From positions 1 through 35,978 of the IMG/VR virus record IMGVR_UViG_3300010883_000157: a DNA stretch of 35,978 nt, one strand, 5' to 3'. The stretch is from a virus. This document shows, piece by piece, positions 4,652-25,443 of this stretch; position 1 is the first letter of the stretch; each line of letters begins with the position of its first letter. Both the position numbers and the translations under genes were made by a program. The notes beneath the pieces were generated by a model that saw only the letters and a program-made list of their open reading frames with translations, did not search any database and had not been told where the DNA came from.

Positions 4652-7491
4652 TGGCAAGACCCGGATACGACAGGCCGAGATCCAAGTCTCCAACTCCGGC
4701 TGACAGGCGGGCGGCTAACGCTGATGCCGGTCAAGAGTCGGTGTTCAACCAGATAGGCATTGGTGTAGGAAATCCTCTGTACTCCACCGCTCTGCACATC
4801 CAGAAGCAGCACATCACCAATGTAATGGTGGACAGGCTACAGACGAGTCAGTTCGGGCCAACCCTCCAGCTTAGGAAGGCCCGAGGGGATCTGGATGAGC
4901 CATTGACGGTTGCGGATGAAGACTACTGCGGCCTTATCGCAGGATACGGATATGTTGGTGCGACCAACCAGTTCCTGAAGGGTGCGTCAATCGAAATCCT
5001 GATCGACGGGACACCCAGCGACAGCGGTTCAGGGGCGTTGCCGTCCTCCCTGCGATTTCGCACCAGAACCACTGCTGGAGCAGAGCCGACAATCTGCTGG
5101 ATGGATGCAGAGGGGAATGTCGGCATAGGGGACATCGACGACCCGGACCAGCAGTTGGAGGTGGGTGGCAGCATCCACATATCGGGCGAGGAGGATCTAT
5201 CCTCGACATCGGTTGCCGATGGGGACGGTGGGCTGCTTTACATCAAGACAAACGGCAAGATCTACTACAAGTCAAACGAGGTCAGCGAAACGGACCTAAC
5301 GGCTAGCGGTGGTGGTGGCGAGGCGAATGAGTCTTCCTTTAAGACGATCTCTGTCAGCGGCCAAGACAACGTAGTTGCGGAAGTTGACGACGACATATTG
5401 ACGTTTGCTCAAGCTGGCGGCATCACCCTCACGACAAACGCAACGTCTGATACCGTCACCATCTCATCGGCAGACACCAATACAACGTATTCTATCCAAG
5501 ACGGCGAGTTATCTCAGAACAACTTTACAAACACTGACCACACTAAGCTGAATGGTATTGAAGCAAGTGCCGATGTTACGGATGCCACCAACGTAACCGC
5601 AGCGGGTGCATTGATGGATTCAGAAGTAACAAATCTTGCGTTTGTAAAAGCCCTAGCTAAAGGTGTCAGCGATGGAAATGTTCTGACAGCCAATGACGTG
5701 GTGGCAGATGATGATTTTCTTAGAATCAACGGGACAGAGGTAGAAGGTCTAACCGTAGCCGAAGTCCTGACCGCATTGAATGTGGAAGCGGGGGCAACAG
5801 CCGACCAAAGTAATGCAGAAATAGTTGCGGCAGTTGAAGCAGGCTCAGACTCTAACACGTTTACTGACACTGACCACACTAAGCTAAATGGTATTGAAGC
5901 AAGTGCAGATGTAACCGACGCCACTAATGTAACCGCAGCAGGCGCGCTGATGGATTCAGAGGTTACAAATCTCGCATTTGTAAAAGCCTTAGCTAAAGGC
6001 ATTTCAGATGGGCAGGTTTTGACAGCTAATGACGTGGTGGCAGATGATGATTTTCTTAGAATCAATGGGACAGAAGTGGAAGGTTTGACCGTAGCTGAAG
6101 TCCTAACCGCATTGAATGTGGAAGCTGGGGCAGATGTAACCGACGCCACCAATGTAACCGCAGCGGGCGCATTGATGGATAGTGAACTGGCTGGCATAGC
6201 TGCTGTAAAAGCGACTACAGGTACTTTCCTGTCGGCAGATGAAAGCAAGCTAGATGGTATAGAAGCTAGTGCAGACGTAACTGATGCCACCAATGTAACT
6301 GCTGCTGGTGCCCTGATGGATAGTGAACTGGCTGGCATAGCCGCTGTGAAAGCAACTACTGGTACGTTCCTATCGGCAGATGAAAGCAAACTAGATGGTA
6401 TAGAAGCTAGTGCTACAGCAGACCAGACTGCTGGCGAAATCTTGACCCTCTTGGAAGATGGTGTTGATAGTGTTCACTATGTCGATGGGTCAATTGATGA
6501 AGCTCATCTAAACGCAACAAACTCCGCCACCGATAACTATCTCTTATCATATGATAGCGGTTCGTCTGGGTTCACTTGGGTCGCAGCCGGTGGAGGTAGC
6601 GGGACCATAACCAGCGTGGTTGCTGGTGCTGGCATGACTGGTGGTGCGACTTCTGGTGCTGCAACACTGAATGTGATTGGTGGCACTGGCATCACCGCCA
6701 ATGCTGACGATATCGAACTCACCGACAACGGAGTCACGCTGGCGAAGATGGCTGGCCTCGCCAGAGGCAAGATCATTTACGGGGACGCTAGCGGTGACCC
6801 AGCCGCCCTCGCCGTTGGTGACGCTGACCAAGTGCTGACACATGATGGAACGGATATCTCGTGGGAGGATGCTGGAGGTGGTAGCGCACGGTCGGTTGCC
6901 GGTGATACGGACAACGCCATCATCTCGTGGGTAACTAGCGACAACACGTTCGCTGCGGAGGCGAATCTGACGTTCGATGGCAACGCAATGGTCATCAACA
7001 ACGCGGGAGGTGCCGGGAACATCCCGCTGACGCTCACGGCCCACTCCGGTCAGACTGCTGACCTGCTTCAGTTTCAGGACAGTTCCGGTGACGAACTCCT
7101 CGTCATTGACAAGGGCGGCAGCATCAAGTTGGGACTGGGTGGGGACCGGGAAGTACACGTTGAACCCGAGAGCGGAAGCAACTCTGCGGGCAAAGACCTC
7201 TTCCTGAAGGGTGGAAAGAGTACTGGCAACACCGAAGGTGGTGACATTCGGTTCTACACCTCCCCGGTTGGATCATCGGGTGTCGGTGTCAACAACTGGG
7301 TCGAGGCAGTGAAGATCCGCCATGACAAAGTGGTGGACTTCAAGAAAGCGGGTGGTTCCAAGACCGTGACGCTCCAGAACGACGCGATGGATGAGTATAT
7401 GAGCGGAACGGCAACGGTCACGGTGAACGCGACCGAGTGGTTGGAGATCAAGGTTAACGGCAACACCCGGTATATCCCGGTCTGGAGTTGA
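4651..7491 (+). CDS. Tail fibre / receptor-binding protein with tandem repeats
   Basis: A 946-aa fibre. The N-terminal part carries GNVGIGDIDDPDQQLEVGGS (near residue 155), the 'VGIG...P...L.V' signature frequent in phage fibres. Residues 295-587 are repeats built on DHTKLNGIEASADVTDAT, AGALMDSE and ADDDFLRINGTEVEGLTVAE. These include one 112-aa unit, a second shortened copy, and two 47-aa units with ESKLDGIEASA. A GSGTITSVVAGAGMTGG segment and a second motif, LAKMAGLARGKIIYG, follow before a C-terminal beta region ending TRYIPVWS. Such repeats are common in marine phage fibres and form long trimeric shafts. The repeat region is less GC-rich than the rest of the gene, suggesting exchange of this module. 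It probably binds the host surface. Confidence 0.85.
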   Translation: MARPGYDRPRSKSPTPADRRAANADAGQESVFNQIGIGVGNPLYSTALHIQKQHITNVMVDRLQTSQFGPTLQLRKARGDLDEPLTVADEDYCGLIAGYGYVGATNQFLKGASIEILIDGTPSDSGSGALPSSLRFRTRTTAGAEPTICWMDAEGNVGIGDIDDPDQQLEVGGSIHISGEEDLSSTSVADGDGGLLYIKTNGKIYYKSNEVSETDLTASGGGGEANESSFKTISVSGQDNVVAEVDDDILTFAQAGGITLTTNATSDTVTISSADTNTTYSIQDGELSQNNFTNTDHTKLNGIEASADVTDATNVTAAGALMDSEVTNLAFVKALAKGVSDGNVLTANDVVADDDFLRINGTEVEGLTVAEVLTALNVEAGATADQSNAEIVAAVEAGSDSNTFTDTDHTKLNGIEASADVTDATNVTAAGALMDSEVTNLAFVKALAKGISDGQVLTANDVVADDDFLRINGTEVEGLTVAEVLTALNVEAGADVTDATNVTAAGALMDSELAGIAAVKATTGTFLSADESKLDGIEASADVTDATNVTAAGALMDSELAGIAAVKATTGTFLSADESKLDGIEASATADQTAGEILTLLEDGVDSVHYVDGSIDEAHLNATNSATDNYLLSYDSGSSGFTWVAAGGGSGTITSVVAGAGMTGGATSGAATLNVIGGTGITANADDIELTDNGVTLAKMAGLARGKIIYGDASGDPAALAVGDADQVLTHDGTDISWEDAGGGSARSVAGDTDNAIISWVTSDNTFAAEANLTFDGNAMVINNAGGAGNIPLTLTAHSGQTADLLQFQDSSGDELLVIDKGGSIKLGLGGDREVHVEPESGSNSAGKDLFLKGGKSTGNTEGGDIRFYTSPVGSSGVGVNNWVEAVKIRHDKVVDFKKAGGSKTVTLQNDAMDEYMSGTATVTVNATEWLEIKVNGNTRYIPVWS
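5533..6411 (+). repeat. In-gene tandem repeats of the tail fibre shaft
   Basis: Two kinds of direct repeat are readable at DNA level. A 336-bp unit runs 5533-5868 and restarts at 5869, its second copy being shortened and merging near 6130 into the next type. Two 141-bp units follow at about 6130-6270 and 6271-6411. Copies differ mostly at third codon positions (for example gatgttacggatgcc against gatgtaaccgacgcc), so the protein repeat is kept while the DNA has drifted. All units are in frame multiples of three. Confidence 0.85.
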
Positions 7492-9721: not shown

Positions 9722-11607
9722 GCATTGTCGTATCACACCAGCCGGATCTGGCAGTCACGTCGGAAATCGCTTACCAGAGCGGCAAGGGGCAATACAACCA
9801 GTGGCTGGCCCAATTCCAGCAGCAGCAGGAGAATGCCAAGACGCAGGCTCTGATGGGCGGCTTCAGTGCTGGTGGCAAGCTCGGCCTCGGCATCGCTGGC
9901 ATGCAGCAGAGGGAAAGGATGCAAGCCGCGACGCTGGCGGCAAACACGGCGGCAACGACGGCGAAGTCCGTAGCCAAATTGGAAGATGACGCAAGGTTTT
10001 CCAAGGCGATGGGCGACCGCCTAATGGATGCGCGGGCGATGCAAGATCCGTTGAATCCAACCGATTGGCCCGATGTTCTGAAATACCCACGGGAGCAGCA
10101 GGAAAAACTGCTCCAGTGGGCGGATGATGTCACAAAGAGCCGCATGAATTACAAGGCTCGCAGCAATCCCGGTACTGTCAGGGCGAGGGTGGGAGGGGAG
10201 GCGGCAGATCAGCAGGCGTTCAGCGCGGGAAAGGATGCCTATAGTACGGCAAGGCATTCGATCAATTCAGAGTTCAGAAAAGGCAACATAAAGCCCCAGT
10301 TGCGTGATCGTCTTTTACGGACGGTCGAACGAAACAAGAGGTTCTTCGGCAACAGTGCCAAGCGGCCCCCAACTCCTGACGAGGTGCTTGAAGGCCAGAA
10401 GACCAGCATGGACCTCCCCGGCGGTGGGGAATCTGTAGGGGTGGTGGGACCGGATAATAAGTACAACGAACTCTACCAAACCCCAACCAAGCAAGCTCGT
10501 GAAAAGGCAAGGACCGACAGGCTGGTCGCCGGTGCTGCTGGTGTATCCGCAATCAACACATCCCTAGCGAGCATATACTCGCAAATGGAGGATGAGCCAG
10601 CGAACGAGAAGACAGGATTTGCGGGAAGCAAAGTAGACCCGGCAACCAAGGCTCGCCTGCAAGCGGAAGCGGACGGACTGATAAAGATTAGGGACTCCCT
10701 AGTCAGGACGTCCACTGCATTAGACACCGGCTTCATTGAAGATCTGCCGCTGATTACACAGAGCTATATGAAACGCATCGCTGAGAACCCGAACTTTGAG
10801 AATGACTCACAGAAAGAGTTCATCCTGATGAAGCAGAGGACGCAGCCCCACAAGTACGTCCTTGACGATCCGAAATACATGCACTTCCGAATGGGCAAGG
10901 CTCCTAACCCAGCGAACCGATGGGACCACGGTGGCGCAGACCCAATCAGCACAATCAGTGATCGAGGACGCCGAGAGGGGAGAACATACTGGGAAAACGA
11001 AGGCACGGGAGAGTTCGGAGACGAGCGGCCAGTACGGCCTCCCGATCCGCCACCTCCCCCAATGCCGCAGGACATCTCGAATGAGGCTCCACCACCGCAA
11101 AAGGGTATGGGGCAACAGCCGATACGAGGAGAGTTGATGGATCTCCAGCGACAGGGTGATGCTGGAGTAGATGCGGCGGCCAAGTTCCAGAGCGACACGA
11201 AATTGTTTGAAGAGTCTGCTGCTGCTAGGAGCAAGGCAGTGCAGCAGGCTCTTGAGCCGCATGTTCGGATCAGCAATCGCAAGAAAGTGAAGCGAGAGTC
11301 TGGAGATCCCAGACGGCAGGGACGTAGCAAGAAGTTGCAATCGACGGGAGAGGTGGAAGCCCTCTTCCCACGTCCTGAAAATCTTGGCAAGCTGGGTGCG
11401 GGTTACGAGATACAGTTTGACCGCCTGTATAACGCTTTCCCGACTCTGAAGCACCGGACCCACGTCCGATTCATTCAGTCCATGCTCAGGAAGTACGGTT
11501 ATGATCGTGACACCATGAGGGCAGAGGCACCTGCTCACGAACAGGCTGCGTGGAATGACGCTATGGAAACCGTGAAGCAACTAAACGACTCGATGAAATC
11601 AAGGTAA
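9718..11607 (+). CDS. Internal-virion-like helical protein
   Basis: A 629-aa protein coupled by an ATGA overlap to the previous gene. Residues 1-130 are Gln- and Ala-rich (QYNQWLAQFQQQQENAKTQA) with a Gly-rich, mildly hydrophobic stretch (GGFSAGGKLGLGIAGMQQ), an arrangement seen in phage internal or ejected proteins. The middle is helical and charged. Residues 435-465 are Pro-rich (PVRPPDPPPPPMPQD). The C-terminal 130 residues are basic with an ESGDPRRQGRSKKL segment, then a small helical domain (FDRLYNAFPTLKHRTHVRF). No enzyme motif is seen. Its position directly before the giant gene suggests a shared ejection complex, which is inference. Confidence 0.6.
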   Translation: MSIVVSHQPDLAVTSEIAYQSGKGQYNQWLAQFQQQQENAKTQALMGGFSAGGKLGLGIAGMQQRERMQAATLAANTAATTAKSVAKLEDDARFSKAMGDRLMDARAMQDPLNPTDWPDVLKYPREQQEKLLQWADDVTKSRMNYKARSNPGTVRARVGGEAADQQAFSAGKDAYSTARHSINSEFRKGNIKPQLRDRLLRTVERNKRFFGNSAKRPPTPDEVLEGQKTSMDLPGGGESVGVVGPDNKYNELYQTPTKQAREKARTDRLVAGAAGVSAINTSLASIYSQMEDEPANEKTGFAGSKVDPATKARLQAEADGLIKIRDSLVRTSTALDTGFIEDLPLITQSYMKRIAENPNFENDSQKEFILMKQRTQPHKYVLDDPKYMHFRMGKAPNPANRWDHGGADPISTISDRGRREGRTYWENEGTGEFGDERPVRPPDPPPPPMPQDISNEAPPPQKGMGQQPIRGELMDLQRQGDAGVDAAAKFQSDTKLFEESAAARSKAVQQALEPHVRISNRKKVKRESGDPRRQGRSKKLQSTGEVEALFPRPENLGKLGAGYEIQFDRLYNAFPTLKHRTHVRFIQSMLRKYGYDRDTMRAEAPAHEQAAWNDAMETVKQLNDSMKSR

Positions 11608-11613
11608 CAGGCA

Positions 11614-14600
11614 ATGCCAAACGGCCCGCTTGACAAGTTGCTACAAGACCACTTCTCGTCTAAGGAGGGTGGCACTGCTCGCGTAGAACAGGAGAGAGCT
11701 AGGCAGTCTGCGAGTGTGGCTGCTGCTGGTAGCCAGCAAATCGACCAGTTGTGGGAAGACCACACCCGTGACCGGTCGGGATATGTCTTCACAAAGCCAC
11801 CGATGCAGAAGGAGCAGGAGAGGCACAGGGAGGGAGTCGAGGCACGATCTGGGGAGTATTTGAAGTCGATGGGCCAGCAGCCCAGTGACATCGACGAAAC
11901 AGGGCCAGTTGGACCGACCCGCCCATACGTGGCCGAGGAAGTGCCGGATATTGCCGAGCAATATGCGATACCTTCTGCTGAGAGGCGTGTCGAACTTCGC
12001 ACTCCGCACGAACACGCGATGGAGAAGCCTCGCGGCATTCCTCTTCAGCAGTACCTGCGTATGAAGGACATCCCGATCCCCGATGACGGGATGATGCCCT
12101 CCAAGAGTGAAGCACTTCAGTACCGGACTGTCCTCAAACGGGTGATGGCCAAGCAGAAGGGCGGACTGCCGAATGACACGGAAGTGTCTCCGTCCGACAT
12201 CTCGTCAATACCACGGAACCACCGATGGTACGCCGCGTGGCTGTGGAAGAAACAGGTTGCCAAAGCAATTCCGAAACAGCAGTCGTGGATGTGGAATGGC
12301 GAAGAAAGCTGGGCCGCAGAACACGCCTATCGTTCTTACGCGACGATTGGAGAAGCCACTGGCCGCATGAAGGATGCGTTCCACGATTTCGGAGTGCATA
12401 TACTAGCCTTGCGAGATACGGGTATATCCGATCCCGACAGGGAGTTTGCCAGACACCTCGACGAGATCAGGGACGCCTCAGATCCGTCTGGCATCAGGCC
12501 AAAGAGTCGGCAGGTTGAAGGGAAGAGCATTGTCGAGCTAATCCAAGAGGGCAGGTACAAGGACGTTGGCGAGCGCGGTGCTTACGGTGCATTGGGCATG
12601 GCCCCTGATGTAGCAGCCACCGTGGCGACCGGAGCCATTGGCAGGGCTGCCGGTGCAGCGGTCGGTCTCTCCACTGCCGGTAGTGGAATCCCCGGAATGT
12701 TCAATGCAACCAATACGGCAGCGACTGCCTACTGGTACGCGAGAAGTGCCCCGGACCTGCGCCGTGAACTTGTACAGCTAGGGTTCGAGGACGAGCATGC
12801 TACGTATGTGGCGGCAATTGTAGCGATCCCCTATGCAGCCATAGAACAGTTGCAGGTGAGTCAGTTAAGCGCACCGATGAAGCGATGGGCCAGAGAAGCG
12901 GTCAAGGCGTCGATGGCGCAGATGCTTGCACGGCAAGCAGGGACGACGCTGAAGCTCTGGGGTACGGAGTTTGCGGAGGAGGTGGGTCAGGGTGGGCTGG
13001 AGCTACTCGGAGTAGCGGCGGCGGCCTTGCACGATAAAGACCCGTCTATTGACTGGAACCAACTTCTAATGGAGAAGTACGAGGAGTTGCAGGAAGCGGC
13101 TGTGACTATTCCGTTCTTGATCGGACCTCGGCAGTCCTCGCAATTGATGATGGACTTCGTCGATAACGCCAGCCGAACCAACTATGACGCGCTTCCCGCA
13201 GGCGTAAAGAAGCTGATGGAGTTGGGTGATTCAACCAACCCGGACGATCCTGCCAGTAAGCACTCGGAGAGACAAAAGGAAGCGGACCTCCTGAAGAAGA
13301 GGATGCAAGATATTCTGACAGGGTTCGCGCAGTCCGTGGCGAAGGATGCCCCCACGAGGGCGGAAGCCGAGAAGGTGTTTAGCGAAACGCCTCCTACGGA
13401 GGCAGAGGTGGGGCAGTGGCCCGCAGGGAAGCGGATGCAGATATTCGGTGTGCCCAACCCGACAGAGGAAACGATCAACAGAACTTGGGAGCGGGTGCTG
13501 GAACAGTCGAGAAGCGAACCCCAAGCGACACGTCCACCCTCAAGAGACGAGGCAGTGGTCAACATAGAGTCGGATGTGGACGAGCAGATTGCGAAGACGG
13601 AAGCAAGGCTTGATCAGTACAGGCTTGGCAAGGTCAAGAAGCCCAAGTCCAAAGCCGCTCGCAAGCAGGAACGGAAGGATCTGGGCCTTCGCTTGACGAG
13701 GCTGAAAGGGCTGAAAAGGAGCCAGCAGGAGTTTGCAGAAAGGGAAACGGGGATATCACCTGAACCCGGCGCGGTCCCCGTGGAAGAAACCGCTCCGGGT
13801 GTTACTACACCGCCTGCCCAGCCAGAGCCTATCGGAACACTGGCCCCGGAAGGGGAGGCCGTTCAAACAGATGTCCAGCTTCTGCAAGCGAAACTAGCGG
13901 ACCTGCGGGGAACGCTGGAGAGGGGATGGCCGCCTCCGATCCCGGAGATGGTCGAGAGAGAAAATGAGGCCGCCATCAAAGAGGCCATCCTAGACGCAGA
14001 GCATGACCTTGGAATCGCCCAAGCAAAAGAGGCGGAATTTCAGGAAGCAGCCACGCCAACGGCACTCGCCCCCGAGACGCCTGCCGCCCCGCCAGCCACT
14101 CAGATATCTGTTGGGGATGAGGTGACGGTTCCGGCGAACAAAGAGGTATACGGCGGAAGCCGCACCGCAAGGGTCACGGAGATCTTAGACAACGGTGACA
14201 TCAAGGTCGCTTACGACAAGCTGGGAGTATTTATCGGCGTCTTCTCCCCGGCGCAAGTCGTAATCGGGGCACGCCCGAAGGCCGCCGCAGCGAAGCCAGC
14301 CGCCAAGAAAGGAACCAAGGCCGCCGCCGAGCCTGCCGCCGCCCCCCTCTCAGACTACCTCGCCCCACCACCCCCTGCCGTCGAGGAGCCTGCGCATCAG
14401 TTGTACGCCCCGGACGGAATAGTGGCAACGGCCCTGAAACTAACCGAACAAGGGAAGCAGGAGGAAGCAGAGAGCCTGATTGAAGACAACCGTGACGAGG
14501 TAGCGGATCTGGTAAAGGACAGGATCAATATTCTCGACGATGAAATTGGAGATCTGGCCCTGCGGGAATCCGACCAGTTGCACAAGGCAAGGCACTCGCT

Positions 14601-17600
14601 CAATAACGAGGGCTGGGGGCAATCTCTGATACACCTCGCAGATGCGACGGACTTTAGCGAGGAGGCGGTTCGCGGGTTCATGAAGGAAATCGCAGATGCG
14701 GAGGAAGCCCCCGAGGAGGTTGCCATCGGTGCCGACGAGCCTGCCGCCGAGGAGCCTGCCGCCGAACCTGCCCCCGCTGGTCGAGCGGAAGGGATCTTAG
14801 AACTAAAAGAAGCGGTGCTTAGTCTTGAGGGAGAGGCATACGATATTCATGACGAGTTGGGATGGCAGACAGACCAAGAAAGAGTAGACGAGTTAGAAGA
14901 ACGACTCCCAATTGTCCAGAGTGAACTTGGAAAGGCTAGAGCAAAAGAGAGGGAATTTCTGGCCGCCGAGGAGCCAGCCCCCGCAGCTGCGGAACCGGCA
15001 ACTTATGGACTGACACCGTTAGGTCGTCTTCGTCAAGAAGAAAGAGTAGCCAATGAGAAAGTGGAGGAAACGCGAGACGCATTGGAAACACTGGAGCATC
15101 GGGTAAAGGTTGCGATAAAGAAGCACGCGAAGAATCCAGACAGTGAAGAAGTTGCATACATCAAAGAAAAGGGGATTGAGCATTTCGTCAAAGAAGGCAA
15201 CAGGCTTTTAGGTTCGGCAAGAGAAGCCGTAGTCGCAGCAGAAGCCGAAGCCGCGAAGATCCAAGAAGAGATCGAGGCACTAGCGGCGGAGGAGCCTGCC
15301 GCACCAGCCAAGAAGGGAACCAAGGCCGCCGCCGAGGAGGCAGAACTTGAGGAGGACGCAGACGCCATTGCTAGGCTCGATGACGACGACGACCTCGCCC
15401 AACTTCTCAAAGCACTGAACGACGAGATAACTGGTCCGGGTGCTGCGGGTGGTCTGATTCCGATCAACCCGAAAGCAGTAGAGATAGCCCAGCAAATCGC
15501 GGTACTGCTCATCAAGAGCGGGGCGAAGAAGTTTGGCAACTTCGCTAGGCAGTTCCTAGCAGTTATCGCGAAACAATTCGGCGGAGAGGTTGCTGGTCAG
15601 TTCAAAGACAAGATCATGTCGATCTATGCCGGGGCGATGTACGATGAAAAGGTGACCGACGCCGAGCGGGAAAAAATGGCCACCCCGGCGAACGCGAAGC
15701 TGTGGGTAGATGCCAACATCGAAACGGCTTTGACAGCGGTCAAGAAGGTGTACGCGGGAGTCACGCCGACAGCAGAAAAGCCAAAGGTCGATATCGCCCC
15801 GGAGTTGCAGACCCAAGCGGAGTACGTCGCCCAGCAGGACTCTGACGATCCTCGACAAGACGCGGAGGACCATGAAGTGGCTCTTGCCGACGCACAGGCA
15901 GAGGGCAGGCCGGTCAGCACTGATGCAGTTGAGGATTACCAAGACACCGGAGGTGCGCAGGTTCCTGATGCTCCGCTGCCCAGTGCGGAGGAGGTTCGGA
16001 AGTCGCTCAAAGCAGTTGAGGAGACGATAAGTAGTCTACTGGAAACGCATGAACGAGACGATGGTCTGAGCGACGACGACGACGAACGCCTAGATCAGTC
16101 GTACTTGAAGCAGTTCGAGTTAGAGGCAACTCTTAAAGAAATAGCAGACGAACAGGAGGACAGAGATGAAACGCTCGGATCTCGACCCGCTGGGTTGGGC
16201 GTTGGAGAAGATGTGGATCAGTCAGAACCCGGCCCTAGTGAAGTCTATGAAGAGGACGGGGGAGCTTTACCCCCTGCTGAAGGAGAGGCAGGACTTGGTG
16301 GCATCGACGTTTCAGACGTTGATGATGAAGGAGGGGTGGCAGCCGTGGGAGGCGAAGGAATGGGTCATGCGGAACATGACCCAGCTTCAGCCGACGACGC
16401 CGCCTCAGAACAGGAACCCCGTCCCGGTAGCACCGGAACCAATCACCGAATAAAAGACGGTGACGATATCGGAGGCGGTGGCGTAAAGGAGAAGTTTGAA
16501 CGGAACATACGGGCACTGGTTCTTCTCAACGATCTGCGGTCCAGTGGCAGGAAGCCGACAAAGCCAGAGAAGCAGACCCTAGCGCGATACGTGGGATGGG
16601 GGGGACTGAAAAAGGTGTTTGACGAGGGCAAGCTGGACACCGCTTGGTCTAATCGTCGCGCAACACTCATAGACACCATAGGCCACGCAACCGAGGACTG
16701 GGATTCTGCCCATCTCAGCGTGCTGAACGCCCACTACACCAGCCCCCAGATCATCACGTCCATGTGGGAAGCTGTGGCGAACTTCGGGTTCACGGGCGGC
16801 AAGGTTCTAGAGCCGTCGATGGGTGTGGGGCATTTCTTCGGAATGATGCCCGGCGATCTTCACTCCGCCAGCGAGTTGACCGGCGTCGAGTTGGACAGGA
16901 TTACCGGTGAGATCGCGGAGTACCTCTACGAGAATGCGACCATCCACAAGACCGGCTTCGAGAAGGCCGTGCTTATGCCGGAGTTTGATCTGGTCATCGG
17001 CAACGTCCCGTTCGGGACGCAACGTCTGGCCGACCTTGCCGATGTTGAAGAACTGCAATTGAAGAACGCTGGCGGCAAGCTCAAGAAGAAGATGAGGATA
17101 CACAACTTCTTCTTCGCCAAGGCGTTGATGAAGACACGACCGGGTGGTCTGATCGCGATGCTGTCCTCGACCGGCACACTGGATTCAAACGAAGACGAAC
17201 ACATCACGTTCATGAAGAAGAACGGCGCGGATTTTGTCGGTGCTGTCCGTCTCTCAGAGATCGCCTTCAAGGCCAACGCCAACACCGGGGTGACCACTGA
17301 CATACTTGTGTTCCAGCGGCGGATGGAAGGGCGGGAGGCGGGGGGACAGGAGTGGGGCGGTGACGCCGAGTGGTACAGGACGGCGGACGGGGAGCATAGC
17401 GTCAAAGCCAGTCCGTACTGGGAGAGCCATCCCGACAACATCATGGGCGACATCGTGCAAAGCAAGGTGCAAGGTGCGCCTAGCAGCAGGATGGGTGTCC
17501 GTCCTGAAACAGACAAGACGATGCTCGACTACAAGCCGGAGATCGACGACCGCCTAGCCCGTCTCAAGGAGAACATCGACGCGGAAGCCCTCGACGCTGT

Positions 17601-20600
17601 GTCGGCACGCACGGAGGAGATGGACAAACCGGACACCGCAGAAAGACCGGAGAACGGTGACTGGGCGGAACTGACGGCTTGGCTTGAAGAGGGGAACCTG
17701 CACGTTGAGGAGGACGACGGCAAGTTCAGCATGTGGCGGAAGGAGTCGGGGGTTCTCGTAAAGCTGGAATGGACCCCGGCCAGAAAGTCGAGTTGGCAGC
17801 GTCTTATAGATATCAACGAGATCCGTGACGCCAGAAGGGTTCTTCTCATCGCGGAGAGCAACCCGGCCCTGTCGAAGGAGGAGGTGGAGAAGCTAAGAGA
17901 AGCACTCAACGAGGTGTACGACGCTTACAGGGTTGCGTGGAAGAAGCCGTTGAACGACGCCAATTCGTTCAGCCTCAACATAACGGACAACCCGGACGTT
18001 GCCGCTTCTGGCATCGAGTCGCTTGAGGTGGTTACAACACACCCCGACAAAAGCGTAACGGTCGAGAAGGCGGACATCTTCACTAAGAGGCTGACGTATC
18101 CTCGTGAGAAGATCGTCGATGCGAAGACGCCGGAAGACGCCTTGGCTGCCAGCCTGTCTGAAAGAGGCGGGATTGACTGGGAGTACATGGCAGGGCTGAC
18201 CAACATACCGGTTCATGGTCTACAGGATTCTCTATCAAGCCTGTTGTTCAAAAACCCGCTGGGTAACTGGGAGACCGGCGACATCTATCTGGGTGGCAAC
18301 GTCCGAAAGAAGCTGGCGGTAGCGATACGGGCTGCCGAGACCGATGCCCAGTTTGACAGAAATGTGAAGGAGCTAACGAATGTCCAGCCTCAAGACTGGT
18401 CACCTTCCGAGATAGCCGTCACCGCCGGGGAAAGCTGGATACCCCCGGCGTTTTACGACGATTTTGTCTACGAAATGGTAGACACCATGCCATACGGAAG
18501 GAGTTACCCGAAGAGAACGAAAAAGCAGGGCTATGTCTACACCGAGGCGACCGGGAAGTGGACGGCGGAAAACAAGCGAGATCCGAAAGTCGTAAACGAT
18601 AGGGGGCATCCGGTTACTAAGAACGGCACATACGGCACTCGACGGATGCCCTTCGACAAGCTGATGCTCAGGCTCATGAACGGTCAGTCTCTTGACGTGT
18701 ACGATCCGCCGATTGAAAGGGGTGGCAGAAGAACCCTAAACAGCGCAGAGACCGCGATGGCCGAGGCGGCTGGGGAGAATATCAATTCTGCTTTTGAGGA
18801 ATGGTTGTGGTTGCCTGCGGCATGGGACCAGCGTGGCGGCTTGATGGCCACGCTGTACAACTGGTTGAACAACAACTGGGCACCTCCCGTTTACGACGGC
18901 GCACACTTGCGGTTCCCCGGAATGTCCGAGGTGTGGAAGAACCGGTTGAATGATCCGAAATACAGCTACCAGAAGAACAACATCTGGCGAATGATTGTCA
19001 GCGGAAACACCCTGCTGGCGCATTCTGTCGGAGCAGGCAAGACCGTGCAGATGATTGCTGCCGCGATGGAGATGAAGCGTATCGGCCTGAAAAACCGTCC
19101 GGTATTCGTTGTCCCCAACACGCTGGTAGTACAGTGGCAGCAGGACATCAGGGAGATCTATCCGAATGCCAAGGTGCTGTCCCCAGACTCGAAAATGCTG
19201 GGCACGACGAACCCCAAGCGACGAAAGCTGATGCTGGAACAGATGCGGTCTGGGGATTGGGACATCATCCTCATGACCCCGGAGGCTTTCGAGCGGGTTC
19301 CCATGACTGAGGGTTACATCAGGTCATACTTCAGTAACGAGATAGCCGAACTTAACGAGTCTCTGCGAGCGGAGCAAAGGGATCGCGGGGCAAAATCTAA
19401 CACCGTCACCGCCATAGCCGAAGCAATCCAGTCCCTCGAAGGGACCATGAACAACCTGTTAGGTGGGTTGAAGAACAAGCAGGGCGAGGCCACGTACACA
19501 GGTCCGTTTTTTGATGAACTGGGAATCGACGGCGTGTTCGTTGACGAGGCCCACCTCTACAAAAACCTCTTTGCCAAATCGCGTCTGGGTCGCCTGCCGG
19601 GCGTGTCCGCACAGGCTCGACAGCGTCCTTACGACATGCACATGAAGACCTCGTTCCTGAACGCGACCACGAAGGGGCGTGGCGTCTTCTTTGCGACGGC
19701 GACTCCCGTCACCAACACGATGGGCGAGTTGCACGTCATGATGCGATACCTCGCGCCCAAGCTGTTGGAAGAGCGGGGCGTACAATCCTTCGACCAGTGG
19801 GCCAAGCGGTACGGGGTTGTCGAGAACAGGCTGGAGGTTGAGGTGGCAGGCCAAGGATTGAGGCCAAACTCTAGGTTCTCCAAGTTCACGAACGTACCGG
19901 GACTCAGGCAAATCTGGTTGCAGTTTGCCGACACGGTACTGATGAAAGATCTGGATCTGCGAATACCCTCCGTCAGAAAAGACTACCCGTTCCTGCGAAA
20001 GTTTGTCGGGAACAAGAAAACTGGCGAGATCCGGTCAGAGATCGTTGGCCATCACATGCTGGGGCCAGACCAAGGGGCGATACAGATTTCCGTTCCTATC
20101 AACGAGACACAGGACGCCTATGTGAAGGAGCTTATAGCCCGCACCAACGCCATCAGGTCCGGGGCAGTTGACAAGTCAGAGGACAACATGCTCTGGGTCA
20201 GCAGTGATGGCCGCAAGGCGGCAACGGATATGCGGCTGATAGACTCCGACGCCGAGGATAACCCCGAGTCCAAGACAAACCTGATGGTGCAAAACGTACT
20301 CGACGTGCATAAGAGGTACGAGGAAACCACGTTCTACGATCCAGAGGCCGACTCGGTCGAGGTCGCCCCCGGAGTGCAGGTACTGTGGGTGGACATGGGA
20401 GTCCCCGGCAAAAAGCTGGGGGAGGATGGATACGCAAAGTTTGACCTGTACAACGACATCAAGAACAAGCTGGTCCTTGGTGGGGTAGCCGTAGACGACA
20501 TCGCGTTCATACAGGACTTCAAGGGGAAAAAGAAGCGGGCGTTATTCAAACAACTGAACAACTCCGAGAAGAGGATCATCATCGCCAGCACCGCATCCCT

Positions 20601-23600
20601 GTCGGTCGGTGCGAATATCCAGAGACACCTAGTTGCCGCGCACCACCTCGACGCGCCTTGGCGTCCAGCCGACATCGAGCAGAGAGATGGCCGGATCATC
20701 CGCCCCGGCAACCTGACGGAAGAAATCGAGATCTACCGCTACGTCACAGAGAAGACGTTCGATGCGTACATGTGGCAGACACTGAATCGCAAGTGGCAGT
20801 TCCTGCTAGATTTCTACAAGGGGGACGTGAGCGTTCAGGAGATGGAGGACATAGAAGACGCGGTCCTGACACCGGAGCAGATGTTGGCACTGGCGACCGG
20901 CGACCCGAAGATGGCGGAGTTGATCGAGCTTGAATCCGAAGTCACGAAGATGGACCGGGAGAAGCATGGTCACGACAGGCGGATCTCCGCCGACAGGCAG
21001 CGACGGCGCATTGCCGCAGATGAGCAGGACATGGCCGTCCGAAGGGCTGGCGCACTGACTGAGGCGGACGATTATTTCACCGCCAAGAGAGCCGACTTGG
21101 TCGAAGGCGTGGATATCGAGTATTTCGTGAAATCCATTCCCAACGAAGAAGGCGTGATACCGGCTGACGTAAAGCACCTGAAGCCCGGAAAAGCTGGGGA
21201 CGCTTTACTTGCGTGGGTGATGAGCGATTTGTTTGATTCAGCAACACAGGAACGCGGACATGGCACGTATCAGGGCGAGCAGTCAGATCACGCGCCCATA
21301 GGGGTTCATGTTGGCAGCATCCTTGGAGTGAAGGTCTACTACGACAAGACCACCGCCAAGGTGCATATGCAACTCAAGTCGCGTCAGTTTGGTGCTGGCG
21401 TGGTAATTGGCGGTTCGCTCGCACGAGATGAGTGGGTAACACTTGGCGGTACACTCAAGCACGACAACACCTATCTCGCGTTCAAGGCGATCCACGACCA
21501 GATCAACAGGCTGGCTGGTGAAGCGAAGGAGGCACGGGAACGTGCTGGTGCTTTAGCGACAGAGATGAGGAGCATAGACCAGCGTCTGGAAAAACCAGAC
21601 TACCAGTACGTCTCAGATCTGAAAAAGAAGACCCTGCGGCTGGCGCAGTTGCAGCACGACATTCGCAACCAGACGGACGTTTCGCCCCCCGTGGAGACTG
21701 CCGAGGGATCGGCTGGCGAGGCCAAGATGCAGTCGCTGCGTGACGAGGCGTCTGCGCTTGATCAGCAGAAGCACCTGATGCAGGACAAGGTGGACGAGTG
21801 GCAGAAGGTTGCTGCGACGGGGCAGGCCACCTCGCTTTCTCCATACAAGAACCAGCCGTTCAACAACTACTCGGTGCTATTCCCCTTCATGCCCGGAGAG
21901 GCCGGGCGTCCACGGGGGAGCCAGTTGCAACACGGTGAATCGCCAGCCGATCCGCTCACAATCCCCGAGCAGCTAAAAGTCCCAGACGTAGAGGTCGAGC
22001 AAGCCCTTCAGGACAGCCACGGGATTCCCCCGGAGGCGATGTTTGCCGAGATACGGAGGGGCATTGATTGGATCTGGCGAGGGATGACCCGCGCAGAGAC
22101 AGAGATCAAGATACCCACCCTTCTCCGTCTCACCGGCAAGGCACGTGACGCGGCTCGGGCTGCGCAGAAGGTTATCGGCCCCGCCATTGAAATCTTCCGC
22201 CTCCTGAAAAACGTGGGGAACTTCGCCCAGTTCAAAGCGTGGGGGACGGTACACGCCATAGTTGGCAACCTCGATAAGGAACACTTCTGGATCTTCGAGC
22301 GGTACGTCATCGTGATGAACCAGTTGCGGGCACTCGATCTGGAGGAGCCACGACGACACAAGTGGAAGAATCGGCAGCAGATCGAGGACTACAAGAAGGT
22401 TCTGGACGATTTCATCGACGGCAAGGATGTCATGTACCGCACTCAGGATGGCCGAATGGTCGAGAGTGAGGGGATGCCCAACATCCGCCAAGCTATCACG
22501 CAACGCAACAAGATCATCCGAGAGATTGTCGAGGAACAGGTCGATCTCGGACTGCTTCCCACGGAGGTGCTGGCGGCCCCCGAACACTACTTCCACCAGC
22601 AGATCGTGATGCTTGCCAGAACGGCCCCGATGGCTCTCGCTTCAAGGCAGGCCAAGCCGGTCAAGCGTGGATACCAGCGGAAGAGGGTGGGAGCCGATGT
22701 TGTCGGTGAGGAGATGCCATCGTTTATCAATGAAGACGGTACGCAGTATTCACTGGACCCGAACACCGACTACCTGCAAGCAGAACTGACTTGGCTCATC
22801 GAAGCGCATGTTGAAGCACACAAGAAGAAGCTGTTCAACGAACTGAACAGGATATTCGGAAAGAAGCCGAAGCTCAGGAGGCTGGCCAAGCATGAAAACC
22901 ATCTGAACATCGTGGGCGGCGAGGCCAACCTGCGACGTGTTCGTGAACTGGAGGCGTTGATTGGGGAGTCAATGGAAAACCCGGACTCACAAGAGTCTGA
23001 CCAGTTGGCGAAGCGAAGGTCGTGGAGAGAACAGATACACAGTCTGGACCCGACGTATGAGTTCCGCCAGAAGAAGGGGGAGATGCGGGGCATTATCCAG
23101 AGGACGACCGATGCCTTGGACAACATCGAGAATGACGACGAGTTCTTTGCGGTGATACAGAGGTTGGCCATTCAGGACATTGGCAGACCGGGCGCGAAGG
23201 CGGCTCGCGGGTTCATGAAGGCAATCTCAGATGAGGAGAGCCTGCTGCGTGATCGTCTGGGTATCGAGTTCATGACATGGGAAAAAGTCCTGCGGCGAGA
23301 CCATCCAGAACTAGCGGTGTACCAGCCCGAGAACGCCAACGTCTACAGGGCATATGCCATACCGCAGCAGGTCATCAATCGGTTCCAAGAGGGCGTCATC
23401 AACCAGATCCTCATCAAGAACCTCGAAGTGGATGCGGATGAGGTGATGGTGCTGTCGGGAGCTAGGGCGAAGCACGTCCTGCCACGGGAGATTGTCAACC
23501 AGTTGAAGAAGCTGGAGTCGAAGCAAGCGAATTCCGATGCGGACGATTTAGCCGCCAAGCTGCTTGGCATGTGGAAGCAGTGGGTATTGCTCAACCCCAA

Positions 23601-25443
23601 GAGGGCGTTGCCTTACAACCTGAGAAACCTTACTGGCGATCTTGACCCCGTGATCGCGGCGGCTCCGGGCATCGTCAAGTACCTGCGCACAGCATTCAAG
23701 CACCTCATGCTGCACCAGAAGAGCCTGAAGGGTGAGCAGTTCGCCCTGCCCCCTGAGATAAGTATGGCCATCGAACATGGGGCCATGGGTTCTGGCATGG
23801 CGGCTACAGAGATTCCAGACACCAAGCAGAGTGCTGCCCTCGAAGAGCTTTACACGGAGGCCAGCAAGAAAGGCTCCATCCTGAACCCGCTCTTGTGGGG
23901 GAAAACAGGGTGGAACAAATACTGGAGCTTTGCGAAGCAGTTCAGTGAGTTCCGAGAGAACATGCTGCGTTACGCTGCCTTCCTTTATTACTTGGACATG
24001 CTGAAGCAGGGCAAGGTCAAGCACTTCGGTGCTAGCCGCAAGCACATCATCCTTGGCATACAGAAGGAACTTGGCGACGGATTCGCCGCCGGTCGGTTGG
24101 CACGGGAGCTTTTGGGCGACTACAACAACCTGACCGCGATGGGTGATTTCCTCCGAAAGAAGATATACGGTATTCCATTCTGGGGGTTTCAGGAGATCAA
24201 CCTGAAACGCTACCCCATGCTGATGCTCAACGCTTTCTCGACAGCCAAGATGTCGAAGGAAGACGCCGCGACGGGATTCGGCGTGGCATCTGGTGCGATC
24301 ACGATGGCCGTGCTGACCACGAGGGTCGGTCTGGGGTATGCCACGGTCATGCTGGCCAACTTGCTGTTCTTCGGTGACGAGGAAGACGAGCTTCCGCCGC
24401 ACGAGAAAGACAACCTCCACATCAATTTTGGTCGCAGTTCTGATGGAATGGTACACACCTTCCGCAACGTGGGTGCGGTGGGCGATTTCATGGAGTGGTT
24501 CGGATTGAACGAGGCCATCTCCATGATCCCGCTGTACAAGGAGGGCAAGGTCGATGGCTGGGACATAATGGAGGAGATGGCCAAGTCTTCGACGAACAAG
24601 CTGGCCAGTGGATTCGGTGCGCCCAAGATGCTGCTTGAGTGCATTACCGGCCAGACCTACTTCCCAGATATCACTGAGCCGAGGCAACAAGACTGGGACG
24701 AGACGTTGGCGTCGTTCTTCAACCTGAGAGACGAGGAGCGATTCGCCAAGGGGATGCTGATAGGAGAAGGCGACCGGGCAAGGCCGTACTACTTCAACCG
24801 CATGATGTGGGGAGTCAACCATCCGGGTCAGGCCGCGATGTCCACCATGTACGAACTGCGGGACCGGTTCCTCAAGAACAAGGGCGAGGACCGACAGGCG
24901 GCAGGCATCAGGAGTTCCATCCGCAAGCTGAAGTGGGCAGCCCAGAACGGCGATTACGACGCTTTCAAGGAGGCGAAGACGGCGTACCTGAAGAAGCCCA
25001 AGCACACCTACTCGTCCTTCTCCAAGGCGTTGCGGTACTTGGACCCCATCGACCAGCGGCTCAGGCAAGAACTGGAGTCGGAGTTTGAACACGAGTTCCT
25101 GACGGCCCAGCAGCGACAGACGCTCAAGTTGGCGAGGGACTACGCTCAGGACACTCGCGTGCAGATGTGGCAGTGGTGGCTGGCGGATGCCAAGGAGAAG
25201 AAGGGCGAGGTTGGTCTGGACCGGGCACTGAACAATGAGGTGCAATCCAAGCTGCGGACCATGTCCCGAGCCAAGCCGCTGAAGAAGTCGAAGAGGCCGG
25301 GATGGCGGATAGACCAGAACAAGGCGTCAATGTGGCTCAAGGAGCGGGGGTTCTCACGAAGCCGTCTGACCAAGCAGTACGAAGGCACACCGAGCAGTCG
25401 GATCAGGGTCAACACAAATCTGCGAAGAGCGGGTGTCGGTTGA
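11614..25443 (+). CDS. Giant DarB-like polyvalent virion protein: adenine methyltransferase and SF2/Snf2-like helicase
   Basis: A 4609-aa protein. Residues 320-470 form an Ala/Gly-rich helical, partly hydrophobic domain ending FAEEVGQGGLELLG. Residues 640-1510 are coiled coil and Ala/Glu/Pro linkers with a small SH3-like segment (830-885). From about 1626 a methyltransferase module follows: FERNIRALVLLNDLR, ARYVGWGGLKKVF, then the SAM site VLEPSMGVGHFFG (1731-1743) and catalytic NVPFG (1797-1801). The helicase has Walker A GAGKT (2473-2477), DEAH (2644-2647), TATPVTN (2695-2701) and motif VI QRDGRIIRPG (3023-3032). MLALATGDPKMAELIELESE (about 3090) resembles the post-helicase segment of P1 DarB-type proteins. 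Residues about 3990-4260 carry YNLRNLTGDLD and a hydrophobic stretch (4222-4254), and the C-terminus is basic. Such proteins are packaged and injected, protecting or processing DNA; that role here is inferred. Codon bias is broken at 1518-1614, where another gene lies in a different frame. Confidence 0.85.
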   Translation: MPNGPLDKLLQDHFSSKEGGTARVEQERARQSASVAAAGSQQIDQLWEDHTRDRSGYVFTKPPMQKEQERHREGVEARSGEYLKSMGQQPSDIDETGPVGPTRPYVAEEVPDIAEQYAIPSAERRVELRTPHEHAMEKPRGIPLQQYLRMKDIPIPDDGMMPSKSEALQYRTVLKRVMAKQKGGLPNDTEVSPSDISSIPRNHRWYAAWLWKKQVAKAIPKQQSWMWNGEESWAAEHAYRSYATIGEATGRMKDAFHDFGVHILALRDTGISDPDREFARHLDEIRDASDPSGIRPKSRQVEGKSIVELIQEGRYKDVGERGAYGALGMAPDVAATVATGAIGRAAGAAVGLSTAGSGIPGMFNATNTAATAYWYARSAPDLRRELVQLGFEDEHATYVAAIVAIPYAAIEQLQVSQLSAPMKRWAREAVKASMAQMLARQAGTTLKLWGTEFAEEVGQGGLELLGVAAAALHDKDPSIDWNQLLMEKYEELQEAAVTIPFLIGPRQSSQLMMDFVDNASRTNYDALPAGVKKLMELGDSTNPDDPASKHSERQKEADLLKKRMQDILTGFAQSVAKDAPTRAEAEKVFSETPPTEAEVGQWPAGKRMQIFGVPNPTEETINRTWERVLEQSRSEPQATRPPSRDEAVVNIESDVDEQIAKTEARLDQYRLGKVKKPKSKAARKQERKDLGLRLTRLKGLKRSQQEFAERETGISPEPGAVPVEETAPGVTTPPAQPEPIGTLAPEGEAVQTDVQLLQAKLADLRGTLERGWPPPIPEMVERENEAAIKEAILDAEHDLGIAQAKEAEFQEAATPTALAPETPAAPPATQISVGDEVTVPANKEVYGGSRTARVTEILDNGDIKVAYDKLGVFIGVFSPAQVVIGARPKAAAAKPAAKKGTKAAAEPAAAPLSDYLAPPPPAVEEPAHQLYAPDGIVATALKLTEQGKQEEAESLIEDNRDEVADLVKDRINILDDEIGDLALRESDQLHKARHSLNNEGWGQSLIHLADATDFSEEAVRGFMKEIADAEEAPEEVAIGADEPAAEEPAAEPAPAGRAEGILELKEAVLSLEGEAYDIHDELGWQTDQERVDELEERLPIVQSELGKARAKEREFLAAEEPAPAAAEPATYGLTPLGRLRQEERVANEKVEETRDALETLEHRVKVAIKKHAKNPDSEEVAYIKEKGIEHFVKEGNRLLGSAREAVVAAEAEAAKIQEEIEALAAEEPAAPAKKGTKAAAEEAELEEDADAIARLDDDDDLAQLLKALNDEITGPGAAGGLIPINPKAVEIAQQIAVLLIKSGAKKFGNFARQFLAVIAKQFGGEVAGQFKDKIMSIYAGAMYDEKVTDAEREKMATPANAKLWVDANIETALTAVKKVYAGVTPTAEKPKVDIAPELQTQAEYVAQQDSDDPRQDAEDHEVALADAQAEGRPVSTDAVEDYQDTGGAQVPDAPLPSAEEVRKSLKAVEETISSLLETHERDDGLSDDDDERLDQSYLKQFELEATLKEIADEQEDRDETLGSRPAGLGVGEDVDQSEPGPSEVYEEDGGALPPAEGEAGLGGIDVSDVDDEGGVAAVGGEGMGHAEHDPASADDAASEQEPRPGSTGTNHRIKDGDDIGGGGVKEKFERNIRALVLLNDLRSSGRKPTKPEKQTLARYVGWGGLKKVFDEGKLDTAWSNRRATLIDTIGHATEDWDSAHLSVLNAHYTSPQIITSMWEAVANFGFTGGKVLEPSMGVGHFFGMMPGDLHSASELTGVELDRITGEIAEYLYENATIHKTGFEKAVLMPEFDLVIGNVPFGTQRLADLADVEELQLKNAGGKLKKKMRIHNFFFAKALMKTRPGGLIAMLSSTGTLDSNEDEHITFMKKNGADFVGAVRLSEIAFKANANTGVTTDILVFQRRMEGREAGGQEWGGDAEWYRTADGEHSVKASPYWESHPDNIMGDIVQSKVQGAPSSRMGVRPETDKTMLDYKPEIDDRLARLKENIDAEALDAVSARTEEMDKPDTAERPENGDWAELTAWLEEGNLHVEEDDGKFSMWRKESGVLVKLEWTPARKSSWQRLIDINEIRDARRVLLIAESNPALSKEEVEKLREALNEVYDAYRVAWKKPLNDANSFSLNITDNPDVAASGIESLEVVTTHPDKSVTVEKADIFTKRLTYPREKIVDAKTPEDALAASLSERGGIDWEYMAGLTNIPVHGLQDSLSSLLFKNPLGNWETGDIYLGGNVRKKLAVAIRAAETDAQFDRNVKELTNVQPQDWSPSEIAVTAGESWIPPAFYDDFVYEMVDTMPYGRSYPKRTKKQGYVYTEATGKWTAENKRDPKVVNDRGHPVTKNGTYGTRRMPFDKLMLRLMNGQSLDVYDPPIERGGRRTLNSAETAMAEAAGENINSAFEEWLWLPAAWDQRGGLMATLYNWLNNNWAPPVYDGAHLRFPGMSEVWKNRLNDPKYSYQKNNIWRMIVSGNTLLAHSVGAGKTVQMIAAAMEMKRIGLKNRPVFVVPNTLVVQWQQDIREIYPNAKVLSPDSKMLGTTNPKRRKLMLEQMRSGDWDIILMTPEAFERVPMTEGYIRSYFSNEIAELNESLRAEQRDRGAKSNTVTAIAEAIQSLEGTMNNLLGGLKNKQGEATYTGPFFDELGIDGVFVDEAHLYKNLFAKSRLGRLPGVSAQARQRPYDMHMKTSFLNATTKGRGVFFATATPVTNTMGELHVMMRYLAPKLLEERGVQSFDQWAKRYGVVENRLEVEVAGQGLRPNSRFSKFTNVPGLRQIWLQFADTVLMKDLDLRIPSVRKDYPFLRKFVGNKKTGEIRSEIVGHHMLGPDQGAIQISVPINETQDAYVKELIARTNAIRSGAVDKSEDNMLWVSSDGRKAATDMRLIDSDAEDNPESKTNLMVQNVLDVHKRYEETTFYDPEADSVEVAPGVQVLWVDMGVPGKKLGEDGYAKFDLYNDIKNKLVLGGVAVDDIAFIQDFKGKKKRALFKQLNNSEKRIIIASTASLSVGANIQRHLVAAHHLDAPWRPADIEQRDGRIIRPGNLTEEIEIYRYVTEKTFDAYMWQTLNRKWQFLLDFYKGDVSVQEMEDIEDAVLTPEQMLALATGDPKMAELIELESEVTKMDREKHGHDRRISADRQRRRIAADEQDMAVRRAGALTEADDYFTAKRADLVEGVDIEYFVKSIPNEEGVIPADVKHLKPGKAGDALLAWVMSDLFDSATQERGHGTYQGEQSDHAPIGVHVGSILGVKVYYDKTTAKVHMQLKSRQFGAGVVIGGSLARDEWVTLGGTLKHDNTYLAFKAIHDQINRLAGEAKEARERAGALATEMRSIDQRLEKPDYQYVSDLKKKTLRLAQLQHDIRNQTDVSPPVETAEGSAGEAKMQSLRDEASALDQQKHLMQDKVDEWQKVAATGQATSLSPYKNQPFNNYSVLFPFMPGEAGRPRGSQLQHGESPADPLTIPEQLKVPDVEVEQALQDSHGIPPEAMFAEIRRGIDWIWRGMTRAETEIKIPTLLRLTGKARDAARAAQKVIGPAIEIFRLLKNVGNFAQFKAWGTVHAIVGNLDKEHFWIFERYVIVMNQLRALDLEEPRRHKWKNRQQIEDYKKVLDDFIDGKDVMYRTQDGRMVESEGMPNIRQAITQRNKIIREIVEEQVDLGLLPTEVLAAPEHYFHQQIVMLARTAPMALASRQAKPVKRGYQRKRVGADVVGEEMPSFINEDGTQYSLDPNTDYLQAELTWLIEAHVEAHKKKLFNELNRIFGKKPKLRRLAKHENHLNIVGGEANLRRVRELEALIGESMENPDSQESDQLAKRRSWREQIHSLDPTYEFRQKKGEMRGIIQRTTDALDNIENDDEFFAVIQRLAIQDIGRPGAKAARGFMKAISDEESLLRDRLGIEFMTWEKVLRRDHPELAVYQPENANVYRAYAIPQQVINRFQEGVINQILIKNLEVDADEVMVLSGARAKHVLPREIVNQLKKLESKQANSDADDLAAKLLGMWKQWVLLNPKRALPYNLRNLTGDLDPVIAAAPGIVKYLRTAFKHLMLHQKSLKGEQFALPPEISMAIEHGAMGSGMAATEIPDTKQSAALEELYTEASKKGSILNPLLWGKTGWNKYWSFAKQFSEFRENMLRYAAFLYYLDMLKQGKVKHFGASRKHIILGIQKELGDGFAAGRLARELLGDYNNLTAMGDFLRKKIYGIPFWGFQEINLKRYPMLMLNAFSTAKMSKEDAATGFGVASGAITMAVLTTRVGLGYATVMLANLLFFGDEEDELPPHEKDNLHINFGRSSDGMVHTFRNVGAVGDFMEWFGLNEAISMIPLYKEGKVDGWDIMEEMAKSSTNKLASGFGAPKMLLECITGQTYFPDITEPRQQDWDETLASFFNLRDEERFAKGMLIGEGDRARPYYFNRMMWGVNHPGQAAMSTMYELRDRFLKNKGEDRQAAGIRSSIRKLKWAAQNGDYDAFKEAKTAYLKKPKHTYSSFSKALRYLDPIDQRLRQELESEFEHEFLTAQQRQTLKLARDYAQDTRVQMWQWWLADAKEKKGEVGLDRALNNEVQSKLRTMSRAKPLKKSKRPGWRIDQNKASMWLKERGFSRSRLTKQYEGTPSSRIRVNTNLRRAGVG
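16166..16453 (+). CDS. Nested gene in another frame inside the giant gene's linker
   Basis: A 95-aa protein from ATG 16166 with a full AGGAGG six bases upstream. Counting by hand, 78 of its 95 sense codons end in G or C, while the giant frame over the first 40 codons of the same DNA has only about 15. In the giant frame this stretch reads as a Gly/Asp/Glu-rich linker, while here it reads as a normal small protein. Recognisable parts are LGWALEKMWISQNPALVKSM, GELYPLLKERQDL, FQTLMMKEGWQPWEAKEWVM and a Pro-rich tail ending EPITE. The GELYPLL...FQTLM layout recalls small TnpV-like or phage hypothetical proteins, but only weakly. It is most likely a real gene over which the giant frame was extended. 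Function unknown. Confidence 0.7.
   Translation: MKRSDLDPLGWALEKMWISQNPALVKSMKRTGELYPLLKERQDLVASTFQTLMMKEGWQPWEAKEWVMRNMTQLQPTTPPQNRNPVPVAPEPITE

Follow-up and report, generated by a model that had tools for sequence, protein, structure and literature searches.

Giant phage proteins in which a methyltransferase is fused to an SNF2 helicase are known from DarB of phage P1, one of the polyvalent proteins (Iyer et al. 2017, PMC5512222). A term search of that 2017 survey gives no mention of an overlapping gene. The Dar proteins of P1 also include Ulx, a small protein listed as aiding the localization of DarB (PMC9024508). A gene hidden out of frame in a phage methylase is likewise on record, since the ShiLan out-of-frame element of an actinobacteriophage methylase is an HNH homing nuclease and an insertion element (PMC11855218). 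A further system of relevance is TnpV, for which resemblance to lambda Xis led to the postulate of a role in the excision of Tn4451 (PMC3158075), and which is also carried by streptococcal elements inserted in snf2 genes (PMC9815147). Here, we analyse an IMG/VR virus record over its whole length of 35,978 bases (hereafter the window), which holds a giant open reading frame (ORF) of the DarB-like class and, in the +1 frame of the giant, a small ORF at positions 16166–16453. Judged from sequence comparisons, this small ORF is very probably a genuine gene for a protein, lying inside that of the giant, a statement that concerns the gene and its architecture, not its function. Such a nested gene is not described in the literature searched, which consisted mostly of papers available without subscription, and a prior description is possible.

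The giant reading frame and the small frame inside it

The features of the locus are given in Table 1. The giant combines an adenine methyltransferase and an SNF2 helicase in one chain, as the DarB-like class does, with the methyltransferase domain scoring just under its cut-off. Its methyltransferase segment is 40–49% identical to those of DarB-like homologues, and numerous relatives of the giant carry the annotation DarB-like or PLxRFG protein.

Table 1. Features of the giant ORF and of the nested ORF, with positions in the window.
Feature	Position	Strand	Basis
Giant ORF, 4609 codons, DarB-like / polyvalent protein	11614..25443	+	SNF2 and helicase C-terminal domains above Pfam cut-off, methyltransferase just below; DarB-like relatives
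AGGAGG, putative Shine-Dalgarno of the nested gene	16154..16159	+	6-nt spacer to ATG 16166; read directly
Giant-frame linker across the overlap, Gly/Asp/Glu-rich	16165..16452	+	15% hydrophobic; w about 1.1 in relatives
Nested small gene, probable divergent TnpV-like helical protein	16166..16453	+	95 codons, TAA stop, giant's +1 frame; 37.9 bits, E 5e-11 within the window's ORFs (106-sequence profile without the window ORF); AlphaFold2 mean pLDDT 81.6
Conserved segment with N6-adenine methyltransferase domain	16489..17103	+	begins 36 nt past the nested gene; alignment A8
Eco57I-like methyltransferase match	about 16933–17184	+	23.5 bits against a cut-off of 25.3, just under
SNF2-related ATPase domain, matched stretch	19003..19290	+	PF00176, 47.6 bits
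Helicase C-terminal domain, matched stretch	20521..20709	+	PF00271, 26.6 bits

An earlier note on this DNA, made from the letters alone, had reported a full AGGAGG six bases before ATG 16166, a run of 95 codons with G or C in 78 of 95 third positions, and only 15 of 40 such positions in the giant frame over the first 40 codons of the overlap; direct reading finds all of these values correct. The same note took the giant frame to read here only as a linker, and the composition agrees with this, as the content of hydrophobic residues places the overlap in the lowest 0.4% of the giant's 95-residue windows. Along the giant, G or C at third positions (GC3) is equally high in the +1 frame in 0.9% of 95-codon windows, and equally low in the giant frame in 2.1%. 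Codon bias alone cannot tell which frame is driving, because the GC3 of the small frame is the first-position GC content of the giant, which is high wherever the linker is rich in Gly, Asp, Glu or Ala. Nor is the length of the ORF evidence for a gene, and it was dropped as such after synonymous shuffling, because 93% of shuffled giants hold at least one +1 open run of at least 95 codons; the overlap site itself stays open in the +1 frame in 20% of shuffles. Both the chance runs and the effect of linker composition on +1-frame GC3 would suit the view that the open frame is a mere by-product of a Gly/Glu/Asp-rich linker and that no small protein is made. This view is nevertheless scarcely credible, since in relatives purifying selection acts on the small frame and not on the giant frame, Shine-Dalgarno (SD) motifs stand at the starts, and stand-alone homologues are recognised by Pfam. 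The gene status of the window ORF thus rests on its relatives, and not on its own length or bias.

The window ORF forms a long branch in the tree, without a close relative. Searching the 95-residue protein for relatives, which the earlier note had proposed as a check, was fruitless when done directly: single-sequence searches gave no significant match in Pfam or PHROGs, nor in scans of IMG/VR, and tblastn against phages gave no match even at E ≤ 10. Weak plasmid matches in a Pantoea methyltransferase were inspected and look like chance. Homologues were found, however, by way of the giant's relatives and of profiles. The scores used here for the window ORF come from profiles that leave it out, as alignment A5 contained it and was circular in this respect. 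Against the profile of 106 embedded relatives (Table 1), the second-best ORF of the window reaches 2.5 bits. The window ORF scores 14.1 bits against a 52-sequence profile that likewise leaves it out.

Nested homologues and frame-specific selection

Six-frame reading of nine DarB-like or PLxRFG loci showed that seven of them contain an unannotated ORF just upstream of the methyltransferase; these ORFs resemble the 95-residue protein, at first weakly, and lie in the +1 frame in all six of those loci whose giant is annotated. The consensus of these ORFs reads MNLxNWxxQARxHWKExxPxxYxxLKxxGxLxxALxxAAExTxxExxxLExxGxxxxEAWxMxRExYLFPPEE. Same-frame homologues directly upstream of the methyltransferase occur in the DarB-like giants of phages from Erwinia, Klebsiella, Pseudomonas, Vibrio, Agrobacterium, Sinorhizobium, Ochrobactrum and Microcystis, and the nested ORF of Klebsiella phage LASTA has homologues in 20 more phage records (E 4e-10 or better), none of which is annotated as a gene of its own. 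A profile scan yielded 67 IMG/VR and 20 bacterial loci with an ORF of this family. About 80 of these 87 loci have it embedded in the +1 frame of a giant, with the third frame closed. Most of the others are broken giants whose small ORF has stayed open, and one is a stand-alone homologue from Pseudidiomarina. Degraded giants with an open nested ORF lie in bacterial genomes at L092, L093 and L103, and the homologue of Pseudidiomarina sediminum (L100, 6974–7759) continues into a long C-terminal region that is hydrophobic and membrane-like, and no giant surrounds it. In a sample of Gammaproteobacteria, the nested family is present in 1 of 369 genomes, which is an already known locus. Among small genes near the giant in relatives, no evident homologues of the nested protein were seen.

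To avoid a choice by the small ORF, 80 giants were fetched by the methyltransferase segment only; they are the best 80 of 356, i.e., those closest to the window, and their contigs are partly shared with the loci above. Among these best 80 of 356, a small-ORF homologue is recognisable by HMM in 63, always in the +1 frame; L198 adds a nested ORF like that of the window, and 12 further giants carry a nested ORF of a second family (type 2, see below), which brings the giants with any nested ORF to 76 of the 80. The earlier note had called an overlap of this length unusual, which is true of genes in general but not of these giants. In addition, protein-like +1 ORFs outside both families were observed in BcepMigl (L225), about 360 nt before the methyltransferase, and at the same place in Bacteroides phage BKO1-TP3 (L226) and in L223. 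No recognisable nested gene was found in P1 DarB or in Thermus Lalka27a. A sequencing indel, raised in the earlier note as a reason why two ordinary genes might appear as one, does not account for the arrangement, as the giant frame crosses the overlap uninterrupted in numerous independent genomes.

In a non-redundant set of 106 nested ORFs, 81 have an SD-like motif before the start and 82 begin with ATG; among same-register ATGs taken as controls, such a motif is seen in 16%. Because SD motifs and start codons are conserved, the sequences favour independent initiation from the small ORF's own start over programmed frameshifting, in which the +1 frame would be reached without internal initiation and the product would consist of a truncated N-terminus of the giant followed by a TnpV-like C-terminus. 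Frameshifting would agree with the small frame often being open before its start (median 25 codons), and also with the giant of phage PBC5, whose N-terminal half is continuous in frame with the small ORF, and with PHROG_938, which ends with small-ORF sequence. However, at 33 of 163 loci the opening of the +1 frame lies no more than five codons from the homologous start, and PBC5 is a lone exception, possibly a sequencing break; together with the conserved starts, this makes frameshifting very improbable. In the two records of Sinorhizobium phage PBC5 (L011 and L012, 5767–12309), the frame break lies just upstream of the nested gene, and the N-terminal half of the giant ends in the small frame. 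It is because of this break that the C-terminus of PHROG_938 consists of nested sequence, and the 'endolysin' matches of PHROG_938 were rejected as a functional hint for the same reason.

Selection can be measured only in the relatives and not in the window ORF itself, because the latter has no close relative. In a four-class overlap test, each change was classed as silent or non-silent in each frame for 22 independent pairs of relatives. Within the overlap, w is 0.28 for the small frame (bootstrap 0.22–0.34) and 1.11 for the giant frame (bootstrap 0.90–1.41). The constraint is reversed in nine control segments of the giant flanking the overlap, where w is 0.04–0.22 for the giant frame and 0.44–1.02 for the +1 frame. 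The small frame also has the lower w in the window's own clade (0.47 versus 1.45, six pairs) and in Bacillota (0.17 versus 1.80, two pairs), and the codons of the overlap give 46% amino-acid identity when read in the small frame, compared with 33% for the giant frame. In these relatives, therefore, the small frame is under purifying selection in the overlap and the giant frame is not. Per-frame conservation was among the checks proposed in the earlier note, and its central claim, that another frame hides a real gene, receives strong support from this result along with the same-frame, same-place homologues and the SD motifs. The giant frame is nonetheless open beyond chance: given the codons of the small protein, the median chance of its being open is 0.21 per locus, and the joint log10 is about −18 for 22 loci taken as independent. 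As the frame is kept open in this way and yet has a w of about 1.1, the giant is read through the overlap, which serves it as a spacer. The internal SD sequence and ATG would let ribosomes begin the nested gene independently. The giant frame, as the selection test in relatives shows, crosses the same DNA as a linker that joins its N-terminal part to the methyltransferase and is kept open but has no further constraint.

Relation to TnpV and to a second nested family

The nested family and TnpV (PF14198) are of similar length and have a common core pattern, P..Y..L...G.L...L, and an iterative profile started from the phage family recovers 36 of 37 TnpV-profile matches. In Pfam scans, 44 of 58 members of the phage family touch PF14198 at E ≤ 1 (best 2.9e-7); a phage-type member, L079, scores 30.9 bits, above the gathering score of 27 bits, and the nested ORFs of Bacillota score 86.8–141.8 bits. 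TnpV itself is nested in the +1 frame of the same type of giant in Bacillota elements, namely human-gut contigs, an Enterococcus faecalis plasmid and a Monoglobus plasmid. On the other hand, the phage family has a different C-terminus, profile–profile comparison with TnpV gives modest support (39%, E 3e-4), and the window ORF is without a significant Pfam match, with its score against PF14198 below the gathering score (27 bits) and no match at E ≤ 1. AlphaFold2 predicts a helical protein, with a mean pLDDT of 87 for a typical member and 82 for the window protein. A fold search of the PDB with the nested protein gave no informative match, and one of BFVD gave nothing informative either, its single good match being nameless and taken as the PBC5 protein. 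By sequence and predicted structure, the nested family is one of widespread small helical proteins related to TnpV.

A further difference is that TnpV occurs in stand-alone copies adjoining a large serine recombinase, with no giant; in Campylobacter coli pCOS502, a stand-alone TnpV directly follows a large recombinase gene. Both forms can also be seen on one contig, L162, which has a TnpV nested in a giant (4654–5202) and a second, stand-alone TnpV downstream (11929–12306). Another contig, L124, has two stand-alone TnpV ORFs beside a giant (5896–6285 and 10862–11239). The earlier note supposed that the small gene came first and that the giant frame was fused across it. Stand-alone TnpV and the unconstrained linker fit this order, but the two forms intermingle in a phylogeny of 122 sequences, with at least three changes between them, which agrees with either direction; that the small gene is older than the giant frame across it is thus no more than possible.

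Type 2 is a second conserved family of +1 ORFs, which occupies the equivalent position before the methyltransferase and contains ANRWMLGWPKRV; it was found at L155, L161, L171, L172, L179, L191, L202, L207, L214, L215, L216, L218 and L007. Selection in its overlap follows the same pattern, with w 0.24 in the small frame and 1.25 in the giant frame (five pairs). Profile comparison with the main nested family gives a probability of 17% and an E of 0.0014, which is suggestive, and type 2 may be a remote relative of it.

Possible function and comparison with known systems

The distances of the nested gene and of the methyltransferase are closely correlated over 114 loci (Mantel 0.77, reached in 0 of 500 permutations), with no discordant pair, and this congruence argues for joint inheritance and not for a homing passenger. 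A selfish or homing element that entered the methyltransferase giant as a passenger, in the manner of ShiLan, would have precedent in the out-of-frame gene of a phage methylase whose host frame is open (PMC11855218), and the mobile elements that carry TnpV include Tn4451 (PMC3158075) and the elements inserted in streptococcal snf2 genes (PMC9815147). However, scans of Pfam and NCBIfam found no nuclease or splicing family in the nested proteins, the gene is not patchy but present in 76 of the best 80 of 356 giants, the distances are congruent, and the predicted helical fold has no informative match in the PDB; a passenger is accordingly most improbable.

The most likely function, put forward tentatively, is that of a dedicated partner of the giant: the nested protein would be a chaperone or adaptor for its folding, loading or delivery, and as both would share an mRNA, the amount of the partner would follow that of the giant. 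Such a partnership cannot be the only role of TnpV, because stand-alone TnpV occurs without a giant, and a role confined to the capsid is unlikely, because nested TnpV also resides on plasmids and on further elements other than plain phages. Co-inheritance and a common transcript would suit an inhibitor as well as a chaperone, and the product might instead be a negative regulator, or an immunity-like protein, holding the methyltransferase-helicase of the giant inactive in the producing cell. The small ORF still being open in several decayed giants (L092, L093, L103) would agree with such a regulator, but the decay of these giants may simply be recent, and we regard this function as unlikely.

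If the partner reading is extended, giants of phages, ICE-like elements and plasmids of Bacillota, Pseudomonadota and others may carry an out-of-frame gene for an obligatory partner, with the giant frame there only a spacer; this is a tentative generalisation. If true, few long same-strand gene overlaps in prokaryotic mobile elements would be as widespread, and TnpV would have to be understood anew, as a partner of these giants that can also exist alone. The nested gene is present in nearly all sampled giants (best 80 of 356) of a class thought to shield incoming DNA from restriction, and TnpV, which is named after a transposon and whose function is unproven, is strongly linked, in genetic terms, to giants of the methyltransferase-helicase type. 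The case is one of a long out-of-frame gene on the same strand that goes systematically unnoticed, as annotation either omits the nested gene or trims the N-terminus of the giant. On the Monoglobus plasmid NZ_OY725736 (L143, 7160–14836), TnpV is retained in the annotation and the SNF2 gene is made to begin far downstream, at 10271, which removes the N-terminal part of a frame that is open from 7160, ahead of TnpV, and in Pseudomonas phage Itty13 (L005, L015), three hypothetical genes are annotated on the opposite strand and the giant itself is unannotated. The overlap also gives a clear example from nature of a constrained frame paired with a free one, and what these giants need becomes directly testable.

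Among described systems, P1 DarB has the same fusion of methyltransferase and SNF2 helicase in a giant phage protein, but it differs in having only 87 codons ahead of its methyltransferase match, with no nested gene found. ShiLan is alike in that an out-of-frame gene is hidden in a phage methylase whose frame stays open; the present family differs from it in the lack of a nuclease, in its near-universal presence and in co-inheritance. Ulx of P1 is the product of a separate downstream gene and has no sequence similarity to the nested protein (hhalign probability 0.2%), but, as a small protein encoded beside a DarB-type giant, it offers a model for the partner role.
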